Shown here: positions 6,406 to 10,175 of the stretch, piece by piece
Numbering within the stretch: the stretch's first letter is position 1
How the letters are laid out: each line of letters starts with the position of its first letter
NCBI GenBank assembly: GCA_002714125.1
Contig: PAWP01000120.1
Coordinates: 1-21,823 of the forward strand
Reading direction: 5' to 3'
DNA length: 21,823 nt
Source of the DNA: Gammaproteobacteria bacterium
GTDB taxonomy: Bacteria > Pseudomonadota > Gammaproteobacteria > Pseudomonadales > Azotimanducaceae_A
Notes under the pieces: model-generated
Databases searched by the model: none
Told to the model about the DNA's origin: nothing
What the model saw: only the letters and a program-made list of their open reading frames with translations
Translations under genes and position numbers: made by a program

Positions 6406-6750
6406 TCAGCCGAGTTCGACGTCAAAGACTTCCTGATTAAAACCAACAAACAGCGTCTTGCCGACCCGAATGGTTGGCGCGCGAAGATTGCCGGTGGGTC
6501 CCAACATGGCTGTGACCGCGTCTTCAGGAACCGCTTTTTTGACATCAAACTCGCTGACCTTCTTACCTTTCATAGCTACTAGGCGGCTCGCGGGGCCCAG
6601 CATGTCACGCGCGTCACTCGCTTGCAGCTTGCGGGATGCAGGCGCCTTGTCAGCAATCTCAATCGCACGATCCTCCATGAACTTGGAGGCTTTTTTGCAA
6701 GTTGTTCAGTTATTGCGGTAGTAGTACCAGTCGACACTCTTGACGGCCAT
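6406..6750 (-). CDS. ArsC-family selenoprotein (UxxC thioredoxin-fold), UGA read as selenocysteine
   Basis: This is a 114-residue arsenate-reductase-like thioredoxin-fold protein, probably a cytoplasmic thiol/selenol oxidoreductase. The N-terminus reads MAVKSVDWYYYRNN, then an in-frame TGA (6706-6708, codon 15), then TTCKKASKF, giving the motif U15-T-T-C18 at the usual redox-active site. The remainder matches the family closely: SRLVAMKGKKVSEFD, then LGPTGNLRAPTIRVGKTLFVGF near the end. The reading frame is open on both sides of the TGA and ends with TGA at 6406-6408. The ATG at 6750 has GGAG 6 nt upstream; another ATG abuts it at 6753. Taking TGA as stop would leave only an N-terminally truncated 90-residue frame starting at 6678. 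A hairpin just after the TGA fits a bacterial SECIS. No selA, selB, selC or selD is in the window. The substrate is unknown; arsenate is not implied. Confidence 0.88.
6672..6689 (-). promoter_or_regulatory. Candidate bacterial SECIS hairpin
   Basis: On the coding strand CCTCCA-AGTTCA-TGGAGG forms a perfect 6-bp stem with a 6-base loop. It begins 16 bases after the UGA, within the coding sequence, which is where SelB-binding elements lie in bacteria. The loop contains the GU pair of bases common in such loops. Beyond a small internal loop, GCA and TGC could add three outer pairs. Folding has been done only by eye. Confidence 0.7.
6706..6708 (-). other. In-frame UGA selenocysteine codon
   Basis: The plus strand reads tca here, that is TGA on the coding strand, at codon 15 of the ArsC-like gene. 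It occupies the first position of a UxxC motif where relatives carry Sec or Cys. Protein homology continues in the same frame before and after it, which distinguishes recoding from a chance stop. Confidence 0.85.
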
Positions 6751-6776
6751 CATGTGCTCCGTAGTTTGACTGAGTA

Positions 6777-6805
6777 ACCATAGCCACGCAGCTCTCACGG
6801 AACAA
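6777..6805 (-). promoter_or_regulatory. Possible sigma-70 promoter of the selenoprotein gene
   Basis: On the minus strand TTGTTC (6800-6805) and TATGGT (6777-6782) are separated by exactly 17 bases, with the ATG about 26 bases further on. Both hexamers are imperfect, so this is only a plausible assignment. Confidence 0.3.
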
Positions 6806-7358: not shown

Positions 7359-8936
7359 TCAGGAACTGCAGGACAACATCGAGCAGCCCGGTCGCGTCCG
7401 TGCCCAATCAGGGCGCTTTTCCGCAAAGTGCTCCCGCTCCGGCTGCTCCGCGTAAGGCTGACGCATTGTGTCGAGCAGTTCGTGAACCAGACTGAAGTCA
7501 CCGGTTTCAGCCTTGTCGATAGCCAGCTGTGCAAGATAGTTGCGCATCACGTATTTAGGGTTAACGGCATTCATCGACGCCGCCACGTCAGCGCCCGGGC
7601 GACCCACCCCCTGCAGACGTTCACGCCAGCGCGCAACCCAGGCATCTAGGCGTTCACGATAGGGCGCGTCGATCTGCGCAGGGACATAGTAGGCATCCTT
7701 CAGCGCCTCGACGTTGTCGTCATCCTCATGGCTGACCATGTTCGCCAGCCTGCGATAAAAGAGAGGCATATCAGTCTCAACGACGGGCAGCAGTTCCAGC
7801 AGGTCATTGACCAGCGACGCATCCTGCTCCACCTCGAACGCTGGCAGGCCGAGCTTCGCCACCTGCATGGTCTGCCAGGCGTCTTGATAGATGTCGACAA
7901 AGGTCTTGAGCGCCGCCTCGAGAGGTGGAGCCTTACCAACAAGCGGATAGATCGCGTTCGCAAGCTGCAGCAGGTTCCATTGGGCAATGCCTGGCTGATG
8001 CGCAAAGCGGTATCGCTTGCTTGCTGCGTCCGTTGTATTTGGCGTCCAGCCCGGATCATAGTCTTCGAGCCAGCCGTAGGGACCATAGTCAATGGTGAGC
8101 CCCAGAATCGACATGTTGTCGGTATTCATCACACCATGCACAAAGCCAACCCGCATCCACTCGCAGACCATGACGGCGGTACGCTGGGTAATCTCCTCGA
8201 ACCACTGCACATAGACATCGTCTGCGTCAGGATCCAGCTCGGGAAAATGGTGTTCGATCGTATGATCAGCCAGACGTTTGAGAAGTTCGTGGTCCTGCTG
8301 CGCCGCCAGGATTTCGAAGTTGCCAAACCGGATAAAACTTGGAGCAACCCGACATACCACCGCGCCCGGTTCGGGTTTGGGATCACCGCTGTAAAGAATG
8401 TCACGGACAACGTCGTCACCGGTCGTAATCAAGCTCAGCGCGCGGGTGGTGGGCACCCCTAGGTGGAACATCGCTTCACTGCAAAGAAACTCGCGCAAAG
8501 ACGAGCGCAGCACAGCCAGCCCGTCGGCGGTCCTTGAGTATGGCGTCATACCTGCACCCTTGAGTTGCAGCATCTGACGCTTGCTGTCTCTGACTACCTC
8601 ACCCAGGGCAATCGCTCTGCCATCACCCAGCTGGCCGGCCCAGTTGCCAAATTGATGACCGCCATAGCACATAGCGTGCGGATCCATCCCAGACAGCACC
8701 GTATTGCCTGCAAAAACGTTGGCAAAGGCCTCTGAGGTGACATCCGCGGCGGACAGGCCAAGCTCAGCGCTCACCTCCGGGGAATGAGCCACCAGTGTTG
8801 GGTTCGGTACTGGCGTCGGCGCTACCCGGGAAAAACACGCCCCCGCGACTTCACGAACATAGTTCGCTTCCGTTGGATCGGCTGGCAGTTCCCGAGTAAA
8901 AGCGTTATCAAAGCGGAGCGCGTCAAGGCCGGTCAT
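7359..8936 (-). CDS. selO: Protein adenylyltransferase SelO (YdiU/UPF0061 family)
   Basis: SelO is a pseudokinase-fold enzyme that transfers AMP from ATP to protein hydroxyl groups and is linked to redox stress in bacteria. The 525 residues carry the family signatures: YGGHQFGNWAGQLGDGRA (91-108), the nucleotide-binding lysine K126 in QLKGAGMTPYSR, the catalytic loop HGVMNTDNM (267-275) with N271 and D273/N274, and D283 of DYGP as metal ligand. The C-terminus ends CSMLSCSS, so the position that is selenocysteine in vertebrate SelO is cysteine here. ATG at 8936 follows GGAG by 6 nt. A longer frame upstream to 9395 crosses the promoter and overlaps dctP antisense, so I rejected it. It is divergent from the TRAP operon. 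Confidence 0.97.
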   Translation of the reverse strand: MTGLDALRFDNAFTRELPADPTEANYVREVAGACFSRVAPTPVPNPTLVAHSPEVSAELGLSAADVTSEAFANVFAGNTVLSGMDPHAMCYGGHQFGNWAGQLGDGRAIALGEVVRDSKRQMLQLKGAGMTPYSRTADGLAVLRSSLREFLCSEAMFHLGVPTTRALSLITTGDDVVRDILYSGDPKPEPGAVVCRVAPSFIRFGNFEILAAQQDHELLKRLADHTIEHHFPELDPDADDVYVQWFEEITQRTAVMVCEWMRVGFVHGVMNTDNMSILGLTIDYGPYGWLEDYDPGWTPNTTDAASKRYRFAHQPGIAQWNLLQLANAIYPLVGKAPPLEAALKTFVDIYQDAWQTMQVAKLGLPAFEVEQDASLVNDLLELLPVVETDMPLFYRRLANMVSHEDDDNVEALKDAYYVPAQIDAPYRERLDAWVARWRERLQGVGRPGADVAASMNAVNPKYVMRNYLAQLAIDKAETGDFSLVHELLDTMRQPYAEQPEREHFAEKRPDWARTRPGCSMLSCSS

Positions 8937-8966
8937 GCTGTTCTCCAGATAAGCGTGCGCAGGCAC

Positions 8967-8972
8967 ATTATA
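8967..8972 (-). promoter_or_regulatory. -10 box of selO
   Basis: A perfect TATAAT on the minus strand sits 30 bases before the selO ATG inside GC-rich DNA, giving a leader of about 20-25 bases. The hexamer 17 bases upstream (GCGGGC) does not resemble a -35 consensus, so an activator or an alternative sigma factor may contribute. Confidence 0.45.
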
Positions 8973-8983
8973 CGGTTTGCGGA

Positions 8984-9007
8984 CGCGGGGCCCGCGGGTG
9001 CGCCCGC
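8984..9007. repeat. Overlapping GC-rich palindromes between selO and dctP
   Basis: CGCGGG-G-CCCGCG (8984-8996) is a perfect interrupted palindrome and it overlaps GCGGG-TGCG-CCCGC (8994-9007). They lie just upstream of the selO -10 box and 56 bases before dctP, where an operator for the divergent pair could be. No regulator gene is adjacent. Confidence 0.35.
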
Positions 9008-9062
9008 ACTTGCCGCCCCCACCCCGAAACGCTAGGGTCCGGGACGCCAAAGGGGGGATTGC

Positions 9063-10175
9063 ATGTTTTCCAAGCAGGCGCTGTTGACTGCCGTTGCCGC
9101 AGCTTTCATCGTGGGGCTGATAACCAGCCTTGCGGTCCGGCCACCCTCCGCGCCGGCAGATGGGGCGGCCCAGACAACTGCGGACGGCAGAGTTGTCGAA
9201 CGGATCCGCTGGCGGATTCCGCTGTCCTCCTCCAGAAATCTGCCAGGTAGCGGCGAGACCCAGATTTGGATGGCTGATGCGGTATCCAAAGCTTCCGGCG
9301 GTGGCATTCGCTTTCAGCTCTTCGATCCCGGGGAGGTAGTTCCCGCGTTTGCCATCACCGACGCTGTCCGTGATCGCAAAGTCCCGGCTGGCCACACCTG
9401 GCTCGGTTATGACCAGGGCAAGATCCCAGCTTCAGCCCTGTTCGGCGCCACGCCTTTCGGCCTGCGCCCGTGGGCTTACATCGGGTGGTGGTTCTTTGGT
9501 GACGGGGAGAAGCTCGCCAACGAAATCTACGCCGAACACAACATGAAGCCGCTGCTCTGCGGTATCACTGGTCCAGAAACGGCCGGCTGGTATGCCAAAC
9601 CCATCGAGAGCCTGGACGACATCCAGGGGCTGAAGATTCGCTTTGCCGGGATTGGCGGTAAGATCATGCAGCGTGCCGGTGCCTCGATCACCATGCTGCC
9701 GGCCGGTGAAATCTTCCAGGCCCTTGAGACGGGCGTTATCGACGCGACTGAGTACAGTCAGCCGATCACTGATCAGGCGCTAGGCTTCTCGCGGATAGCC
9801 AAATACAACTACTACCCAGGATGGCACCAGCCGTTCAGCGCATCGCACCTGGTCGTCAATCTGGACATATGGAACTCGATTTCCGGCGCGGACCGCGAGC
9901 TGATCCATATGCTCTGCAGTGCAGCCACCGGGCGCCACCTGGGTATGACTGAGTCGCTGCAAGGGGAGATCATCAAAGGCTTCCCCGACATCGGCGTCAC
10001 GGCAATGGAGACGCCGGTTCAAATTCTCCGGGAACTCGAAGGCCATGCAGCCGTCGTCCTGGATGAAGACGCAGCGAAAGATGCAGACTTTGCGCGGGTG
10101 CTCGCCTCCCAGCGGGCCTTCAAGGAGAACCACGACTTCTGGCGACGTCTCGCATACCTGCCACGGGAGTTTTAG
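9063..10175 (+). CDS. dctP: TRAP transporter substrate-binding protein (DctP family, 2-oxo/monocarboxylate-like)
   Basis: This is the periplasmic solute receptor of a tripartite ATP-independent transporter, which delivers an organic acid to the DctQM membrane complex. The 370 residues begin with an uncleaved or signal-type hydrophobic segment (about 6-25). The family core follows: LDDIQGLKIRFAG, then the arginine-containing strand, and ALETGVIDATEYSQP at about 220-234. The E-Y-x-x-P-x-x-D-x-x-LGF pattern is like TakP-type receptors for 2-oxo acids or lactate, a tentative substrate hint. ATG at 9063 follows a strong AGGGGGG. It is 3 bases from dctQ, forming a dctP-dctQ-dctM operon. Length is normal. 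Confidence 0.93.
   Translation: MFSKQALLTAVAAAFIVGLITSLAVRPPSAPADGAAQTTADGRVVERIRWRIPLSSSRNLPGSGETQIWMADAVSKASGGGIRFQLFDPGEVVPAFAITDAVRDRKVPAGHTWLGYDQGKIPASALFGATPFGLRPWAYIGWWFFGDGEKLANEIYAEHNMKPLLCGITGPETAGWYAKPIESLDDIQGLKIRFAGIGGKIMQRAGASITMLPAGEIFQALETGVIDATEYSQPITDQALGFSRIAKYNYYPGWHQPFSASHLVVNLDIWNSISGADRELIHMLCSAATGRHLGMTESLQGEIIKGFPDIGVTAMETPVQILRELEGHAAVVLDEDAAKDADFARVLASQRAFKENHDFWRRLAYLPREF

Follow-up and report, generated by a model that had tools for sequence, protein, structure and literature searches.

A predicted ArsC/Spx-like selenoprotein of the NF041106 family, hidden by standard annotation in a gammaproteobacterial contig

Selenoproteins that resemble arsenate reductases are already on record. 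Table 1 of a 2026 review (PMC13188914) gives NF041106 as an "Arsenate reductase-like protein" with a UxxC motif, U being selenocysteine (Sec), in an entry that follows the heading "Predicted with high confidence"; the source cited for it is the 2008 Global Ocean Sampling paper (PMC2398784). The survey in that paper holds 42 sequences of an "Arsenate reductase 2" (cd03032, UxxC). ArsC-like selenoproteins are also included in a 2006 paper (PMC1794560), and selenoproteins were reported in Planctomycetes in 2016 (PMC4807772). The selenoprotein family is thus already catalogued. A literature search, made largely without full texts, found no experimental study of NF041106. Here we describe a predicted member of this family encoded in a stretch of 21,823 nucleotides (nt), hereafter the window, which is positions 1 to 21,823 of contig PAWP01000120.1 from a gammaproteobacterial assembly (GCA_002714125.1).

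The gene lies on the minus strand and has the following parts.

6406..6750, minus strand: predicted coding sequence of the ArsC/Spx-like selenoprotein (NF041106), 114 amino acids plus stop, with its ATG at 6750..6748 and the same start in the closest relative, locus L001
6706..6708, minus strand: predicted Sec codon UGA, U15 of UxxC; TGA in 38 of the 46 distinct rows described below and TGC or TGT in 8
6697..6699, minus strand: codon of Cys18, the probable resolving cysteine of UxxC, invariant in a 14-row alignment (A3)
6757..6760, minus strand: GGAG, judged from its sequence a probable ribosome-binding site, 6 nt ahead of the ATG at 6750
6406..6678, minus strand: 90-amino-acid open frame with an ATG, left by standard gene calling and lacking the active site

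Read through, minus strand 6750..6406 gives MAVKSVDWYYYRNN-U-TTCKKASKFMED...GPTGNLRAPTIRVGKTLFVGFNQEVFDVELG-stop, a protein of 114 residues with the active-site motif U15-T-T-C18. The sequence-only reading of this DNA had placed an in-frame UGA in a UxxC motif at residue 15 of a 114-residue product and had stated that taking UGA as a stop leaves only a 90-residue frame from 6678, with the active site lost; both statements agree with the minus-strand readings 6750..6406 and 6678..6406. Its "UGA-TTC" needs correcting, as these letters are the residues T-T-C (codons ACA ACT TGC) and there is no TTC codon. The gene's own terminator is a second TGA, at 6408..6406, where L001 has TAG.

The read-through protein matched NCBIfam NF041106 ("ArsC family (seleno)protein," ArsC_rel_Se_1) at 112.9 bits, with a cut-off of 85, and because it reaches this score over the whole profile the match is far beyond chance. 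Profile positions 1-107 of 107 were covered, confirming the earlier claim that homology continues in frame on both sides of the UGA. The Pfam ArsC match was borderline at 23.9 bits (gathering score, 24), and the cut-off of the NCBIfam Spx/MgsR model (TIGR01617) was missed at 35.1 bits versus 75.05. Judged by sequence, the window protein is one more member of the known selenoprotein family NF041106, and the earlier assignment to an established family of ArsC-like selenoproteins thus stands, both on the 112.9-bit match and on the entries in PMC13188914 and PMC2398784.

We then looked at the Sec position in relatives. Among the best 120 of 2111 protein database hits, 101 were short forms of 78-100 amino acids without the motif, while the position held W in 12 and C in 7. 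Short forms and W entries are what one would see where gene callers end the frame at UGA or misread it. The closest relative's protein, P0015, is stored as a 90-amino-acid "hypothetical protein"; a corrected annotation restores the active site. At the DNA level, TGA was present in all seven of the first relatives' contig loci (L001 to L007). In the order of G003, a family member over the cut-off was found in 9 of 390 genomes, each with one TGA; a further member below the cut-off also had one TGA, and weaker stop-free matches scored no more than 38-39 bits. In the class of G001, the closest relative's genome, 369 genomes were sampled and G001 alone gave a family match. Of 294 genomes sampled from Planctomycetota, the phylum of G007, roughly one in five has the family (66 matched at E 1e-15, 64 over the cut-off), and the 67 matches there carried one TGA in 57 cases and no stop in 10. 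We fetched the loci of the 30 best-scoring of these 67. Reading the codon at the DNA level in 49 rows, including 3 duplicates, left 46 distinct rows (the window and 45 loci), of which 38 had TGA and 8 had TGC or TGT. A distant UGA member, L033, scored 71.9 bits, below the cut-off; its genome has selB, and its locus has a 7-bp hairpin with the loop AGUUA.

The UGA form accompanied selB. In the order of G001, whose 293-genome sample overlaps that of the order of G003, selB was over the cut-off in 39 genomes, and all nine genomes with a family match (eight over the cut-off, one below), each in the UGA form, had it (Fisher test, 5e-9). For Planctomycetota, where 24 genomes were hand-picked from the 30 fetched, selB was present in 16 of 16 UGA-form genomes versus 2 of 8 Cys-form genomes (p 2e-4). 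The genomes of the first seven relatives had selB in six and selA in six over the cut-off. A tRNA-Sec was over the cut-off in six of the seven; ARAGORN named tRNA-Sec(UCA) in five of these and called the sixth, in G004, a tRNA-Ser. G001 itself has selA, selB and tRNA-Sec(UCA). In G002, which has selA and selB, the best-scoring tRNA-Sec candidate is a tRNA-Ser.

A candidate Sec insertion sequence (SECIS) follows the codon.

6672..6689, minus strand: SECIS-like hairpin with a 6-bp stem (CCUCCA/UGGAGG) and a 6-nt loop (AGUUCA), the loop lying 22 nt after the UGA

The bacterial SECIS model in the Fig. 2 legend of PMC13188914 has a loop of 3-9 nt, a stem of 4-16 bp, a G in the first two loop positions, a distance of 16-37 nt from the UGA and an energy of at most -7.5 kcal/mol. 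The window hairpin lies within these constraints, with its AGUUCA loop, 6 bp, 22 nt and energies of -9.4 (30 nt) and -10.8 (47 nt) kcal/mol; the commoner extra pair across the SECIS loop is not formed. Across 15 rows that we call gammaproteobacterial-type (a label coined here, which includes L004), synonymous identity was unusually high (0.78) at codons 6-11 after the UGA, a stretch picked after the hairpin had been seen; 50 other columns averaged 0.39, with 0.82 in one. The most conserved of 44 six-codon windows began at codons 5, 4 and 6 after the UGA. In an alignment (A1) of the 13 distinct hairpin stretches from these 15 rows, with the distant L033 excluded, 86.5% of cells were paired versus 19-48% in slid controls, and both-sided changes occurred at 3 of 8 pairs, each confined to one sequence. 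A second alignment (A2), of hand-picked rows with a visible hairpin, entered no count. Energies averaged -9.5 kcal/mol (mean z, -1.4) over the 38 rows with UGA and -5.6 (mean z, -0.9) over the 8 with Cys. For the NF041106 family, these data add to the case for a SECIS at the codon level and, to some extent, by covariation.

Several observations weigh against a UGA decoded through this hairpin. The covariation score was higher in the control slid by +1 (0.109) than at the hairpin (0.077), further pair types were no more frequent than in shuffled rows (189 of 500), and the hairpin pair 9-24 was broken in 10 of the 13 A1 rows. Nor is the hairpin exceptional in folding alone, as 12 of 200 shuffles were as good. 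Under synonymous shuffling, values of 0.05 or less were confined to 5 UGA rows (of 38) and a single Cys row (of 8); the 15 gammaproteobacterial-type rows all lay above this, with 0.06 for the window. Rfam gave no match in the window at gathering scores, nor in 6600-6800 at E up to 5. Several Planctomycetota UGA rows do not show the loop here; rows including L065, L072-L074 and L077-L079 are without the G at a loop position common to the others, and because it is absent there their SECIS probably differs from that of other UGA members. As for the machinery, selD was over the cut-off in just three of the seven relatives' genomes, draft bins that may be incomplete, and the best selD match in G001 was 48.9 bits, under the cut-off of 125. 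G001, G002 and G006 (loci L001, L002 and L006) all show this combination of selA and selB with no selD over the family cut-off, which may reflect incomplete bins or a divergent SelD. Finally, G004 has a family gene, yet neither selA nor selB was over the cut-off in its bin. The G004 contig (L004, NHEC01000067.1), filed as Planctomycetes TMED75, is probably misbinned, since about 5.4 of its 7.4 kb aligns at 78-81% identity to L003, a Pseudomonadales contig, and the L003 and L004 proteins group in a tree; this probable misbinning would explain the exception to the selB rule.

Two readings would do away with Sec altogether. If the UGA were a plain stop, the locus would be a pseudogene or would encode a shorter protein from 6678 without the active site. 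The 90-amino-acid frame does have an ATG, and the 101 short forms among the 120 best hits have just this shape, but protein homology extends upstream of and through the UGA, 38 of the 46 distinct rows share a single TGA at this codon and the other 8 have Cys there, and the UGA form tracks the presence of selB; we consider a plain stop very improbable. The 12 database hits with W at the Sec position might instead suggest a changed genetic code in which UGA is read as tryptophan. We infer that these W entries stem from gene callers reading TGA as W. TGA terminates both the window gene and the adjoining SelO gene, and all eight non-UGA rows have Cys, never Trp, at the DNA level, leaving a tryptophan codon practically no credence. 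Comparative evidence strongly supports a genuine selenoprotein gene that standard annotation conceals.

A third reading accepts the selenoprotein and takes it to be a genuine arsenate reductase as well. We take the canonical arsenate reductase motif to be CxxS, and the window protein has UxxC. By both profile and fold, its nearest solved structures are those of Spx and of ArsC-related proteins whose function is unproven, and the plainly named arsenate reductases 3f0i and 3rdw rank below these. For comparison, the ArsC 1 entry of PMC2398784 is UxxS. We think arsenate reduction quite unlikely here. The caution in the sequence-only reading, that the family does not establish a catalytic role for this gene, also holds.

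Taken as a whole, the observations are best explained, and we say so with high confidence, by an NF041106 selenoprotein whose Sec is directed by SelB and the hairpin and which is a probable thiol-disulfide oxidoreductase. SelB would deliver selenocysteyl-tRNA to the UGA at 6706-6708, guided by the hairpin at 6672-6689, as comparison among relatives suggests. We would expect a small protein with the thioredoxin fold, of the Spx/YffB/ArsC-related kind; to go by its family and fold, its likeliest redox role is that of a thiol-disulfide oxidoreductase. Sec15 would probably make the attack as a selenol, with Cys18 as the resolving thiol, and the Se-S bond so formed would then be reduced by a system of thioredoxin or glutaredoxin type.

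The neighborhood of the gene is common to the window and L001 alone, because the other window proteins were not found in L002-L007. The window and L001 have the gene order cox1-cox2-eamA-dhdps-duf2784-NF041106 gene-selO-dctP-dctM in common, and of the 15 window proteins L002-L007 have only the NF041106 gene, apart from a single weak match (26%) in L002. In five relatives (L002, L003, L005, L006 and L007), ten flanking genes shared no theme; a NUDIX gene stood beside the NF041106 gene in two, L003 and L006. No tRNA was found in the window.

7359-9395, minus strand: SelO (protein adenylyltransferase), ending ...SCSS and then TGA

Bacterial SelO commonly has Cys in its C-terminal motif. We rejected this SelO as a second selenoprotein, as its motif has Cys (...SCSS) and its TGA simply ends the gene. 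Called from 9395, the SelO frame overlaps with dctP (9063-10175, plus strand), and since the Pfam match begins only at residue 186 the true SelO start is probably later. When the window was compared with L001, a TGA of one or both sequences stood at an aligned place in 72 of 79 matched frames. Judged by eye, in the part of the window covered by L001, the TGA at 6708 was the one found to lie in the true frame of a gene with homology before and after it; the other aligned in-frame TGAs were rejected, taken together, as gene ends or as antisense or shadow frames over conserved genes.

Among solved structures, the arsenate reductase 3f0i is a weaker match to the window protein. Spx (PDB 3ihq, 3gfk and 6ghb) is among the closest profiles and folds and has its CxxC at the place of UxxC, but the window protein has Sec for the first Cys and LRAP for LRRP and falls far under the Spx/MgsR model cut-off. 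The NF041106 family could be an Spx-like selenol redox switch in which Sec15-Cys18 senses oxidants and which acts on a protein partner instead of a small substrate, and so no branch of the arsenate reductases. We think this idea improbable, with a small chance of being right; if true, it would make a selenoprotein regulator present in Gammaproteobacteria and Planctomycetota. SACOL0876 (PDB 2m46, "Arsenate reductase, putative"), whose function is putative in the deposit, at least ties with Spx as the closest by profile and fold, and its active site, CTTCKKA, has Cys where the window protein has Sec. "Arsenate reductase 2" (cd03032), to go by its description in PMC2398784, has the UxxC motif and the ArsC/Spx type in common with the window protein. 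From NF041106 itself we found no difference: the window protein matches it in full-profile score over the cut-off, in UxxC and in the exchange of Sec and Cys among relatives.
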